Positions 48,237 to 54,223 of a stretch of DNA of 60,338 nucleotides are shown here, one piece after another. The notes below the pieces were generated by a model. It was not told the DNA's origin, did no database searches, and was given only the letters and a program-made list of their open reading frames with translations. Every line of letters begins with the position of its first letter. Within the stretch, counting starts at the first letter, position 1. Origin of the DNA: Candidatus Peribacteraceae bacterium (GTDB lineage Bacteria; Patescibacteriota; Gracilibacteria; Peribacterales; Peribacteraceae); assembly GCA_028699155.1 (NCBI GenBank), contig JAQVVD010000005.1, forward strand, positions 1 through 60,338. Direction: 5' to 3'. Position numbers and translations under genes: made by a program.

Positions 48237-49304
48237 TTAGAGCCGTGTCATAGCCTGAGGAACGTTTCTCCAGTACACGTATCCGAGTGCGCAGGAGAGG
48301 GAGAGAACCAGGATCCAGATGCCTGCGCCCGTCTCCGGTTGGGAGAGAGGCTTGTGTGCTGTCACAGGCTGAGCGGGGGCGCCTGCGTGCAGCGTATCTG
48401 TTCCCTGAGGCAGGGAAGCGGAAGGCGTGGGAACGTAGCTCGAGCCGACCGTGTACGGATTGCGTGGGATTTCCGCCGTGGTGCCGGTTGTTTGCGTCGG
48501 TATGACAGGCGGTTCTTCGGTCTCTTCCTGTGCGACGAAAGGATTGCCGAAGTCTTGTGCAGGGGTATCCGCTTCAGTTGCTGCCGGCTCGTTTTGAGGC
48601 TCATCTTCCTCGGTTGCCTGTAGCGCATCGAGCAGCGCGAGCACTTCTTCCTCCGTTCCTGTTTCTGCTTCTATTGCTGCTTCTGTCGTTTCCGTTTCAC
48701 TCGTCGGAGGAGGAGTGTCAGATGGGAGCGCAGTTTCCTGCGGCGCGAGATCCGGCTGCACGTCGTCTTCTGTCGGCGCAGGTTCTGCAGGTTCCGCTGG
48801 TTCCGGCACAGGCTCCTGCTCTGTGGGAGTGCTGCCAATCGTAATGGTGCCGAGAGCGGAACCCGTCGTCAGCGTATAGGTGTGTTGCGTGTGCATCGGC
48901 GCATCTTCCGGCACGTCGTATCGCCACGTATCGCTCTCGAAGAGAATCGAACTGTAGAGGCATGATCCGCCGCTCTCACAGAGCGTATCGGATGATAGAA
49001 TTGCCGGCGTTGTCGTTGTGTTGACCCAGGCGATGCTGGCGCCCGGGAGAACGGAGATATCGGCTGGATCAAATCCATCCTCCGTAATGTATACCGTCAC
49101 TTCATCTACCAATTGCGCAGTGATGTTCTTCAGCCCGCGGAAGAATCCGAAGGAGAGGGCGCAGACGAGCCCGATGCCGACCAGTGCAGCCGGATAGCGT
49201 GCGACGTGCTTCTCTCTCGAAGGGGTTGCGGCATGTGGTACATCCTTGCGCTCCTCTGCAGAGCAGGAGTTTGTGGATTGCCAGTGCGGGTGGAGTTCAG
49301 GCAT
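48237..49304 (-). CDS. Membrane-anchored cupredoxin-fold protein with sortase-like tail
   Basis: 355 residues. A TM anchor (about 39-58), then a cupredoxin-like domain (about 65-155, ITEDGFDPADISVLPGASIAWVN, ending GTITIG), a long Glu/Pro/Thr-rich linker, a QPETG motif, a second TM helix and a short basic tail (WRN). The usual copper ligands (His after the second strand and the C-x-H-x-M loop) are absent, so it probably does not bind copper. The start overlaps the stop of the upstream cohesin gene (ATGCCTGA at 49297-49304), so translation is coupled. It is the last gene of the dockerin-cohesin operon. Confidence 0.72.
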   Translation of the reverse strand: MPELHPHWQSTNSCSAEERKDVPHAATPSREKHVARYPAALVGIGLVCALSFGFFRGLKNITAQLVDEVTVYITEDGFDPADISVLPGASIAWVNTTTTPAILSSDTLCESGGSCLYSSILFESDTWRYDVPEDAPMHTQHTYTLTTGSALGTITIGSTPTEQEPVPEPAEPAEPAPTEDDVQPDLAPQETALPSDTPPPTSETETTEAAIEAETGTEEEVLALLDALQATEEDEPQNEPAATEADTPAQDFGNPFVAQEETEEPPVIPTQTTGTTAEIPRNPYTVGSSYVPTPSASLPQGTDTLHAGAPAQPVTAHKPLSQPETGAGIWILVLSLSCALGYVYWRNVPQAMTRL

Positions 49305-51033
49305 GTGTGCGAGGATGCAGGCAAGTCGCTAGCTGTCTGCGGCTGGCGAAGATCGTTCCGATGATGGCCGAGACCAGGAGAAGGAGCGCCAGTGTGGAAC
49401 CGGTTCCGGTACTGCCAGGCAGGTCGCCGACATCCTGGCGTGCGAATGGATTCTCTCCCGGTGCGTCCGTGAGGATAGATGCGATGAGCGGTGCTGTAGA
49501 AGTTGTGGGATTGCCGATTTCCACGGCTACTTCCTGGCTGAATGCGCTCTCTTCATCATTCATATCGACTGCGCGAATGGCGAAGTAGTACGTCGTTCCC
49601 TCCGGCAGGTTCCGGATTGCCACGTTTGCCGTTGTGCCCGGAATGGTCTTCCGTTGGATGTACTGCCCGGAAGTCGCGCCGTAGTAGACATTGTACGCTT
49701 TGAGCATAGAGGAACGCAGGTCGTCCCACTTCAGGAATGCGGTGTCTCCCTCAGAGGTCACGCGCGGATTCCTGATTTGGAGGAGCGAGAATGCCGTGCG
49801 GTCATTCCGGTACGTTTCAGGATCCTGGCACGTACCCTCCACGCAGAGATTGCTTGCGCACTGCGTGCTTAAGACGCAGGTGCCTCCCACAGGAATTTGC
49901 GCCTGTTTACTGCTGCAGAAACCCTGGTAGCAGATTCCATCCGTACACTCGCTGCTGCTCGTGCATGCCTGAGGAGTTTCTACGGGATTCTCTGCAGTGC
50001 GGCAGACGCTATTCACGCAGTTGTTACTCGCACACTCTCTGTTGGACGTGCAGCCTTCCCCGGTAGCCAGTCCGGTGATACCGGAACAGAATCCATTGCG
50101 GCACACTTCGCTTTCACACTGGTCATCGCGGCGGCATGCGCCGTCGTTCGGAATGCGGAAGTCCTCCCTGCGGCAGAATCCTTCGTAGCAGGTTCTGCTC
50201 TCACACTCGCCGTCGAGCATGCAGGGTTGGAGCCCGTCAGTCGTTTCTGCGGCGCAGACCCCGTCTACGCAGGTGTGACTCGTGCATTCCGCATTCGCGG
50301 TACAGGGACCGCCGGCAGCGGTGAGAGATGCAGTCGTCGCAGCGCTCTGGGGATCCAGCCGGACGAAGAGCGCGCCTGGTTCCTGCTGGAGCGCGTATGT
50401 CGCTTGTCCGCCCGCGTCCTTCGCGAGTATGTACGTGTGCCCGTCACGCTGCACATTGAAGAAGCTGACGGCTGTTCCGGGGGTGAGTTCCTTGATGACG
50501 GTGAAGGTGATGCGCGCGACGGGGACCCAGTAAGACGTGGGAGGATTCTCCGTGCTCGTATTCGCATGAATTTTCGCGAAGCCCTTCTCAGAGGCAAAAT
50601 CTGCTTCTCCCGGGATGACTTCGACGAACGGGTCGTCGTACACCTCGATGGTCTTTCCCTCCAGGATTGTCGCGTCGTAACTCAGCCATGTACGTACGCT
50701 GGTAATCGGATTGCCCTGCGGGTTCTGTACGACGAGATCGATATCGAGCGTATCACCGACGGAGAGAGCTTCTGTCTGGAGCGTCTGCGGGTCGCGTACG
50801 TCAAAGGGTGGGCAACTGTCGGCCGTATCCGGGCTCACTGTCCAACCGGGAGGAGGAACGGAGCCGTAGATCCATGTATCGGTCGTGTATCCTTCCACGC
50901 AGTGGGGGCGCAAGACCAGCGCGGCGCCAGTTGCTTCCTGCGACTGTGCCACGCGCGGCGCGGCAAGGAGGAGCAGCGCGCAGGCGATGCCTGTGCACAT
51001 GCTCCGATGGAAGGTTGTGGTGTGTATTCGCAT
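49297..51033 (-). CDS. Surface protein with cohesin-like, Cys-rich repeat and fibronectin III domains
   Basis: 578 residues from the ATG at 51033. After a signal peptide, a cohesin-like beta domain (about 60-190) has the VGDTLDIDLVVQNPQGNPITSVRTWLSYD pattern. Seven or so short repeats of C-x5-C-x4-C-x3-G-x-C type follow (about 230-400, for example CTSHTCVDGVCAAE and CESRTCYEGFCRRE), then an FN3 domain (about 415-505, LRSSMLKAYNVYYG ... GTTYYFAIRAVD). A C-terminal TM helix after an LPGSTGTG motif and a RR end resembles a cell-wall sorting signal. Displayed on the surface; the partner dockerin is encoded 10 nt upstream. Confidence 0.8.
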   Translation of the reverse strand: MRIHTTTFHRSMCTGIACALLLLAAPRVAQSQEATGAALVLRPHCVEGYTTDTWIYGSVPPPGWTVSPDTADSCPPFDVRDPQTLQTEALSVGDTLDIDLVVQNPQGNPITSVRTWLSYDATILEGKTIEVYDDPFVEVIPGEADFASEKGFAKIHANTSTENPPTSYWVPVARITFTVIKELTPGTAVSFFNVQRDGHTYILAKDAGGQATYALQQEPGALFVRLDPQSAATTASLTAAGGPCTANAECTSHTCVDGVCAAETTDGLQPCMLDGECESRTCYEGFCRREDFRIPNDGACRRDDQCESEVCRNGFCSGITGLATGEGCTSNRECASNNCVNSVCRTAENPVETPQACTSSSECTDGICYQGFCSSKQAQIPVGGTCVLSTQCASNLCVEGTCQDPETYRNDRTAFSLLQIRNPRVTSEGDTAFLKWDDLRSSMLKAYNVYYGATSGQYIQRKTIPGTTANVAIRNLPEGTTYYFAIRAVDMNDEESAFSQEVAVEIGNPTTSTAPLIASILTDAPGENPFARQDVGDLPGSTGTGSTLALLLLVSAIIGTIFASRRQLATCLHPRTHA

Positions 51034-51043
51034 GGTCACGGAG

Positions 51044-51373
51044 TTAGCGATATTCGATGTGCGAGAGAAGGCGCATGGCATCATCTACTGTCAGTATTCC
51101 ATCATCATTGGGATCGGCTCGCAGTTCCTCTGTCGATGCCGCTCTGTATCCCTGGGCGATTTCCAGGATCAGGCGGACATCCTCCAGGTCGATCTTTCCG
51201 TTTCCGTTCATATCGCCGCGCACTTCCGTACTTCCCGCTTCGATGAGGCTCACAGGTTGCACGGTGCCTGCAGTGTAGATTCCAAGGCCGAACGATGAGG
51301 CGATGCTCGCGCACCCCAGTGCCAGAATGCCGAGGGTTCTCCTATGTGCCGCGAAGATGTTTTGGAGAGACAT
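51044..51373 (-). CDS. Small membrane protein with a type I dockerin domain
   Basis: 109 residues from the ATG at 51373. An N-terminal hydrophobic segment (about 14-38) is followed by a dockerin: two EF-hand-like calcium loops, DMNGNGKIDLEDV and DPNDDGILTVDDA, each with the D-x-N-x-G-x-I-x3-D layout, separated by about 27 residues. Dockerins bind cohesins at nanomolar strength in cellulosomes. The stop is 10 nt before the cohesin gene, so the two proteins are made together. Confidence 0.82.
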   Translation of the reverse strand: MSLQNIFAAHRRTLGILALGCASIASSFGLGIYTAGTVQPVSLIEAGSTEVRGDMNGNGKIDLEDVRLILEIAQGYRAASTEELRADPNDDGILTVDDAMRLLSHIEYR

Positions 51374-51517
51374 ATCGTAGTAGTATAGGGGAAAGCGCAT
51401 CTTCCATCAATTCCCACCTGTTGACTAAAAAGGGGAATATGTTTTGAAATTGTCCATCGCATCGTCGTTGTCCCGTGCGATGTCGTGCGGCGGGAAAATC
51501 TGGTAGGATGGCGATCC

Positions 51518-52953: not shown

Positions 52954-54075
52954 TCATTCCTGCGGCACGAAGAGCGGCAGGATGATCAGGATGATGAGTG
53001 CGATGAAGGTGAGGAGCGTGAGTCCTCCTATTGCCAGGATGATCGGCGGCAACGCCTTGATCCTGTTCAGAAGATTCGCGCCTGCTCCGGGTTCTTGCGC
53101 TTCGCTGCCCGGTGCGGGAGGCCCGAATACTTCGGCGGGCTCTTCCTCAACTGCTGCCGAAGGTTGCGCCGTGAGCGTGATACTCTCCGGTTTGCTGCAG
53201 AGTGCGCTGTTGCGTAGGGCGGATGCAATGGAATCCAGATCAACATTCCATCGTTCGGCGAATCGTGCAGAGACATCGGGAATGCTCTCTTCGAATGCCG
53301 CAGCATCGCGCAGGCCGCGTTCGCGCAGGCGGCAGAGGGTGCGGAGCATCGCTTCCTGCGTGAGAGCGCTGTCCCCCTCGAGCACGCCATCCACCTCCTC
53401 TGCCGTTGCCGGTACTGCCGCATCTTCCTGCGGAGGAGTGGACGTACCAGCGATCGCGGCGCTGGGAAGGAGGGAAGGCGCAGCCGCCGCAGGCGCTTCT
53501 TCCTGCGATGGGCCTATGGCACCTGGGAGTTGCACAGGTGTCGGTATAGGCGACGGAACCGGCGCAGGTGTTCCTGGTTCCTGTTCCGGGTCCCCCGCGT
53601 AGAAGAGGTACGGGTAGAGCCCATTGAGCACCTCCTCGCAATGGAGGGAGCCTGCCAGCATCTCCGTAACGGCACCGGGTGAGAGCGAGAGGTTCTCCGC
53701 GACGCGCTCAACCAGTCGTTGCTTGGTGATGGGCAGCACATTCGGGTCTGTGTACCGATCCTTCACTCTGCAGAGCACCCGCGCCTTGTGTCCCGTTGAA
53801 CGGCTCGCCTGCAGGGCGGGCTCGGAAGGTACGGCGGCATCCTCGATGAGCGTGGCGTAGGAGCGGGTATTGCTGTGCATTCTCTGTCGTATGGCTGCCC
53901 TGCGCAGCGCTTCTCGATCGGTAGCACTGGCGGAGATCGTTTGCTCTACGGCAATGGTCTCATCTGATGCTGCAGCAGCCTGTGGGATATCGCTGATCGC
54001 GAGCGCAACAACGGATGTTCCCAGGATCAGCAGGAGTCCGGGGGAGAGGCGCGGAGCATGTCGCAGGTTTGTCAT
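52954..54075 (-). CDS. Hypothetical envelope protein with N- and C-terminal hydrophobic segments
   Basis: About 373 residues from the ATG at 54075. A signal sequence (about 12-33) is followed by a helical domain with two Cys (SLSPGAVTEMLAGSLHCEE), a Pro/Ala-rich linker, a second Cys-containing helical region with a similar ring (ALTQEAMLRTLCRLRERGLRD) and a C-terminal TM helix (about 345-368) ending FVPQE. The two helical regions may be a divergent duplication. Function unknown. Confidence 0.65.
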   Translation of the reverse strand: MTNLRHAPRLSPGLLLILGTSVVALAISDIPQAAAASDETIAVEQTISASATDREALRRAAIRQRMHSNTRSYATLIEDAAVPSEPALQASRSTGHKARVLCRVKDRYTDPNVLPITKQRLVERVAENLSLSPGAVTEMLAGSLHCEEVLNGLYPYLFYAGDPEQEPGTPAPVPSPIPTPVQLPGAIGPSQEEAPAAAAPSLLPSAAIAGTSTPPQEDAAVPATAEEVDGVLEGDSALTQEAMLRTLCRLRERGLRDAAAFEESIPDVSARFAERWNVDLDSIASALRNSALCSKPESITLTAQPSAAVEEEPAEVFGPPAPGSEAQEPGAGANLLNRIKALPPIILAIGGLTLLTFIALIILIILPLFVPQE

Positions 54076-54223
54076 GTGAGAGGAAGAGGAAACGATCGTA
54101 AAAAAGGAAAGGCAGTGCAAGCGAAAAGGGAGATACAATTATCAAAGATTGCCCTGCCGTCAATACGGCGGAGAGGCATATGGACAAGATGGCATCTTCA
54201 TGTTCAGTAATATCTGATGGGTT

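Follow-up and report, generated by a model that had tools for sequence, protein, structure and literature searches.

Pairs of cohesin and dockerin domains are known mainly from cellulosomes, and the roles put forward for them elsewhere are guesses. What, then, are both domains doing in adjacent genes of a CPR bacterium? The locus lies in the window, that is, the whole stretch of DNA analyzed here: 60,338 nucleotides of contig JAQVVD010000005.1, from a Candidatus Peribacteraceae genome of 1.18 Mb in 44 contigs. Three ORFs follow one another on the minus strand (Table 1) and encode a small dockerin protein, a cohesin/Cys-repeat/FN3 protein and a third protein. Their coordinates match exactly the three-gene unit of the preliminary description, with 10 nt between the dockerin and cohesin ORFs and 8 nt shared by the cohesin and third ORFs. 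Sigma-70-like sites, one of which precedes the dockerin gene, occur over the scanned region at about chance level.

Domains and predicted anchoring of the operon proteins

In the window, the profile scores of both domains are near the Pfam cut-offs. For the dockerin profile (PF00404), hmmscan gave 22.5 bits over residues 53-105 (E = 1.3e-4), just below the cut-off of 22.9, and the genome scan 23.5 bits, above it; for the cohesin profile (PF00963), the corresponding values were 22.6 bits over residues 87-192, below the cut-off of 24.1, and 25.8 bits, above it. These scores indicate that the window domains are divergent. In the family orthologues, scores were clearly above the cut-offs, with E-values down to 5e-9 for the dockerin and 5e-11 for the cohesin, which confirms the two domains named in the preliminary description. 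First, the small protein combines a type I dockerin profile match with two calcium loops that are essentially invariant in an alignment of 54 orthologues, and a phmmer search against the PDB matched it to cellulosomal dockerins (2y3n_B, E = 1e-4). Second, the cohesin profile match comes with a cohesin beta-sandwich (jelly-roll) fold: all 50 PDB matches listed by Foldseek for a dockerin-cohesin model were cohesins, the best being 5lxv_A (E = 4.7e-9), and the matches listed include the non-cellulosomal cohesin-FN3 module of C. perfringens (2w1n). Further along the same protein, hmmscan placed EB-like Cys repeats between the cohesin and an fn3 domain (residues 420-501, 29.2 bits, above the cut-off); the FN3 was also what phmmer matched in the PDB.

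Table 1. Features of the three-gene operon in the window
Feature	Coordinates	Strand	Remarks
Sigma-70-like site TTGATG-17-TATACT	51382..51410	-	single; directly 5' of dockerin start
Dockerin gene, 109 aa	51044..51373	-	one dockerin domain, behind a membrane segment at the N-terminus and a short spacer
N-terminal membrane segment (dockerin protein residues 14-36)	51266..51334	-	topology inferred
Dockerin domain (PF00404)	51056..51217	-	profile and predicted structure
First calcium loop, D54-x-N-x-N-G-x-I-D-x-x-D65	51179..51214	-	D54 and D65 invariant
Second calcium loop, D87-x-N-x-D-G-x-L-T-x-x-D98	51080..51115	-	D87, T95 and D98 98% conserved
Cohesin/Cys-repeat/FN3 surface protein gene, 578 aa	49297..51033	-
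Cohesin domain region	50356..50916	-	includes conserved RPHC...C N-terminal cysteine pair
Cys-repeat region	49834..50265	-	in some orthologues only; elsewhere Ser/Pro/Glu-rich linker instead
Fibronectin type III domain	49531..49776	-	best-conserved portion of the cohesin protein
C-terminal LPGSTG + hydrophobic segment + RRQ	49333..49425	-	sortase-type sorting signal or membrane anchor
Third operon gene, 355 aa	48237..49304	-
Plastocyanin-fold domain lacking type-1 copper ligands	48834..49106	-
QPETG + hydrophobic segment	48255..48353	-	sortase-type signal or second TM

Then, we considered how the operon proteins may be held at the surface. Over 54 sequences, the membrane segment of the dockerin protein is as well conserved as the dockerin domain itself, with F28 and G31 invariant (as is A46) and G36 kept in 94%. 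Such unusually strong conservation argues for a helix that stays in the membrane rather than a signal peptide that is cleaved. Unlike this N-terminus, that of the cohesin protein is not conserved across orthologues. At the other end, a TG-type motif followed by a TM segment was present in all 39 cohesin proteins compared, being of the P-G-x-TG type at 30 of the 39 loci and accompanied by RRQ at 36, and 29 of 38 third proteins carry QPxTG plus a hydrophobic segment. An NCBIfam scan of the operon proteins, whose motifs differ from LPxTG, returned no anchor match; matches to NqrB and the like lay far below cut-off and were discarded. The source genome encodes two clear sortases, and a sortase A has been reported in Ca. 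Peribacter riflensis (PMC4736985). Hydrophobic segments and TG-type C-terminal signals agree with the proposal that these proteins are anchored. It is from such sequence features that we infer the membrane topology, orientation and sorting or processing of the operon proteins.

The third protein had been described as an anchored cupredoxin-fold protein. It is predicted to consist of a cytoplasmic N-terminus, a TM helix, the cupredoxin-fold domain, a Pro/Glu-rich linker and QPETG with a TM helix. The fold stood up to analysis: AlphaFold modeled residues 67-157 with a pLDDT of ~93, and Foldseek matched them to plastocyanins (E = 6e-8). The copper site did not, since the plastocyanin-like beta-sandwich lacks the His-Cys-His-Met ligands of a type-1 center. 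The first copper His is Ala in the window protein, and at the Cys position none of 35 aligned domain-bearing proteins has Cys and 31 have Ser. The protein therefore has its fold in common with plastocyanin and pseudoazurin but differs from them in lacking type-1 copper ligands, and at five loci the cupredoxin domain is missing altogether while the TM-linker-TM frame is kept. Copper electron transfer by the third protein is thereby ruled out.

Conservation of the operon in the family

The cohesin protein was searched in 59 genomes, the source genome included. It gave strong matches in 35 family genomes, which represent 35 different genera; the 36th, G035, is 66% complete. Directly upstream of the cohesin gene, phmmer detected the dockerin gene in 32 of 34 relatives, a count that rose to 33 once a profile search had added one with a degraded first calcium loop. 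The first loop is degraded or lost in the dockerin of G027 (L065:6806-7153), and in G019 (L057) the cohesin gene is present and the dockerin gene undetectable, which suggests that the pair is not strictly essential. Among 240 genomes sampled from across the phylum, full-length matches to the cohesin protein were confined to the family, and those found elsewhere were to the FN3 region.

We also compared 39 Peribacteria loci (L090-L128) that were fetched separately as a second collection, many of whose genomes overlap the first set. Scanning with an 11-row alignment recovered relatives with the same locus, and those that bear a name are MAGs of Candidatus Peribacterales, Peribacteraceae or Peregrinibacteria, which places the source genome in the Peribacteria of the CPR. 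Dockerin, cohesin and third gene kept their order and strand in 39/39, which excludes chance and decay: the operon is conserved across ~35 genera. A divergently transcribed holA lies upstream at 38 of these loci, with greA at 33 and carB at 32, so the operon appears to sit in a stable, vertically inherited place. Judged from its domains and its conserved adjacency, the earlier claim of a real cohesin-dockerin pair in one operon of a CPR bacterium is right, with the binding itself a prediction.

Some further observations concern the same loci and genomes. On a contig filed under a Kiritimatiellales MAG (L105, JAIPIN010000010.1) and probably misbinned, the Peribacteria operon is present in full, neighbors included. 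Near holA, the window encodes on the minus strand (52954-54138) a putative surface protein of 394 aa with a C-terminal membrane segment, found at only two of the 39 loci while the genes around it are conserved. Most family genomes (G003-G034, e.g. G028:C1:775414-775905) have a second FN3 protein of ~800-900 aa, which shows no apparent link to the cohesin operon. Lastly, in-frame TGA codons occur in some relatives of the same class, which fits the use of code 25 by class members.

Cohesins and dockerins in the source genome and in sister lineages

Does this pair belong to a cellulosome? The source genome has one convincing cohesin, two further matches (E = 0.07 and 0.19) being sub-threshold and not credible, and two dockerins: that of the operon and one on a secreted Cys-rich protein of 1,400 aa, which carries it complete and internal beside six DUF4215 repeats and a weak propeller match. 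With a threshold of E = 0.001, a single cohesin and a single dockerin were detected in most genomes of the family. Cohesin and dockerin profile scans of the source genome revealed neither a multi-cohesin scaffoldin nor a dockerin-bearing glycoside hydrolase, and no cellulose-binding module was among the Pfam matches of the operon proteins. Since both the scaffoldin array and the enzymes are absent, the cellulosome reading is rejected, and the pair is non-cellulosomal. The preliminary description had rightly seen no glycoside hydrolase, as neither dockerin protein of the genome is such an enzyme; its word "scaffold" was too strong for an operon whose cohesin protein has a single cohesin and no array.

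Additional dockerins came to light in some relatives. In G025, six dockerin matches stand against one cohesin, some of them on DUF4215 proteins. Three adjacent related genes on one of its contigs (G025:C46, L136) each carry a dockerin, and the one checked has DUF4215 repeats; these are candidate clients of the cohesin. In G034 (C33, L144), the N-terminus of an additional dockerin protein is of the LEPLENR type, typical of Planctomycetes, and the sequence is probably bin contamination; hence we did not accept every extra dockerin in relatives as a client. Next to the gene for the 1,400-aa protein (L036:4870-9072, G000:C16) lies another (L036:4061-4873), whose Glu-rich product has a membrane segment at its C-terminus. 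This neighbor and the third protein of the window share a short motif, LxxALQA, helical in the third-protein model.

Several other families of the class have a homologous cohesin-FN3 protein, ~350-450 aa long. In four of them (f2, f9, f11 and f17) its gene follows that of a cohesin protein of ~180-240 aa, whose N-terminus is mostly of the lipoprotein type, and those of large proteins (1,260 to >2,100 aa). The giants of f2 and f9 combine Ig-like, DUF11 or TIG domains with a C-terminal dockerin or dockerin motif, that of f11 has a dockerin motif, and in that of f17 a dockerin was searched for and none detected; in f15, giants with dockerins and a cohesin lipoprotein lie on a separate contig. In f3 the gene order is that of the operon: first a protein of 493 aa that has a membrane segment at its N-terminus, then cohesin-FN3, then a third protein with two TM segments. 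The C-terminus of the 493-aa protein looks dockerin-like by eye, and Pfam gave no match. Between the third proteins of the family and of its sisters, alignment is restricted to the C-terminal sorting segment (probability 86.5). Several dockerin-bearing surface proteins of the sister families are adhesin-like. Cohesin display of dockerin-bearing surface proteins would predate the family, and in Peribacteria the partner with the dockerin would have been reduced to a small protein of the membrane.

Possible functions and known cohesin-dockerin systems

The explanation that we favor, with confidence only a little above even, is a lineage-specific, non-cellulosomal clasp in which cohesin and dockerin bind in cis and so attach a protein displayed at the surface to membrane or wall. 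The three genes would be co-expressed as a single operon. The small dockerin protein would be held in the membrane by its N-terminal helix, placing a calcium-binding dockerin near the membrane, and the cohesin/FN3 protein would be exported via a signal peptide; its C-terminal P-G-x-TG/TM signal would retain it either in the membrane or, once processed by sortase, in the wall. Calcium-dependent binding of the dockerin to the cohesin of its operon partner would staple the latter to the membrane, leaving the Cys-repeat region or Ser/Pro linker and the FN3 domain to face outward; the third protein, with two TM segments and a copper-free cupredoxin domain, would be a further surface component. The clasp is supported by the constant gene order at 39/39 loci, the dockerin gene adjoining the cohesin gene in 33/34 relatives, the intact calcium loops, the TG signals conserved in the cohesin and third proteins, the two sortases and the same gene order in f3. 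A wider version, tentative and on balance doubtful, is that a single dedicated cohesin-dockerin bond, dependent on calcium, serves throughout this CPR family as a structural rivet in the envelope, joining a membrane dockerin to a wall-sorted display protein, and that this bond derives from an ancestral system of the class in which the cohesin displayed giant dockerin-bearing adhesins.

The second dockerin of the source genome counts against a clasp, as the large secreted protein that bears it could be the real ligand. This leads to the main rival, which we judge unlikely: the cohesin/FN3 protein may be a membrane receptor for other large dockerin surface proteins such as adhesins, with the operon dockerin as a stand-in or regulator until a client arrives. 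The six dockerins of G025 with their single cohesin would suit a receptor, as would f2, f9 and f15, in which large DUF11/Ig-like/TIG/TSP3 proteins with C-terminal dockerins adjoin cohesin genes. However, most family genomes lack a second detectable dockerin, and the small dockerin is kept almost everywhere.

Quite improbably, the two domains might not bind each other at all and serve as rigid or calcium-binding surface modules, co-transcribed for other reasons. In line with this, the window domains are divergent and near the Pfam cut-offs, and modeling did not demonstrate an interface. For the model, the dockerin and cohesin of a relative (L095), which lie in frame, were joined by translating through the stop codon and submitted to AlphaFold with 62 aligned rows. 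Each domain reached a pLDDT of ~97. The pTM of 0.64, the measure by which docking was judged, falls between the values that we estimate from the definition of pTM for floating (~0.59) and docked (~0.7) domains and is compatible with either. Yet exactly these domain types are adjacent almost universally, with a single convincing cohesin and intact calcium loops.

We consider it very improbable that cohesin and dockerin act in trans, linking neighboring cells or a host cell. Both partners are predicted surface proteins, and adhesive roles have been proposed for non-cellulosomal dockerins and cohesins of ANME archaea and Omnitrophota (PMC9012536, PMC10066038). Nevertheless, the dockerin domain lies only ~20 residues from its membrane helix, which would give it little reach through a cell wall. 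We also know of no host protein with a cohesin or dockerin partner domain. Finally, a cellulosome remnant or a chance pair of weak profile matches, as the cellulosome-type domains and near-threshold window scores might suggest, is refuted by the operon's conservation in ~35 genera, the cohesin fold matches, the single cohesin and the lack of any dockerin-bearing glycoside hydrolase or multi-cohesin scaffoldin in the genome.

Because one cohesin and one operon dockerin are kept together in a fixed operon throughout a family of bacteria with reduced genomes, each partner can be predicted from the other and the two are open to direct tests in vitro. If the clasp is true, it would identify a specific molecular component with which CPR cells build or display their surface, and sister lineages tie the same cohesin to adhesin-like giants. 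An attachment role is plausible given those partners, and host attachment by the operon, as proposed in the preliminary description, is possible by analogy: an adhesin role has been suggested for dockerins outside cellulosomes (PMC10066038), and Peribacteria are predicted to be symbionts from gene content only (PMC4736985). In the portion of the literature on Peregrinibacteria, CPR, Patescibacteria and Gracilibacteria that our search reached, we found no description of a cohesin/dockerin system, and the five-genome Peribacteria paper mentions neither domain. Each domain by itself is known; within the reach of this search, their arrangement is new.

How does this arrangement compare with known systems? 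Like the cellulosomes of Clostridia and Ruminococcus, it has the same domain families and folds, predicted to lie outside the cell with one partner linked to membrane or wall; it differs in that each cohesin protein has a single cohesin instead of a scaffoldin array, that no enzyme bears a dockerin and that the dockerin is itself predicted to be membrane-anchored. With the non-cellulosomal modules of Archaeoglobus and ANME (Peer et al. 2009, as cited in PMC9012536) it shares a cohesin and a dockerin unlinked to cellulose, low copy number and an open function, but the ANME systems are described as variable, some proteins having several cohesins, whereas Peribacteria have a fixed three-gene operon in the family core. 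C. perfringens GH84C (2w1n) also combines cohesin and FN3 in a single chain outside cellulosomes, as modules of a secreted enzyme; the Peribacteria protein, in contrast, is predicted to be non-enzymatic and anchored. Omnitrophota, too, are ultra-small bacteria with dockerins proposed as adhesin parts (PMC10066038), but nine of theirs are in one giant protein, whereas Peribacteria have one small membrane dockerin with its cohesin encoded next to it.
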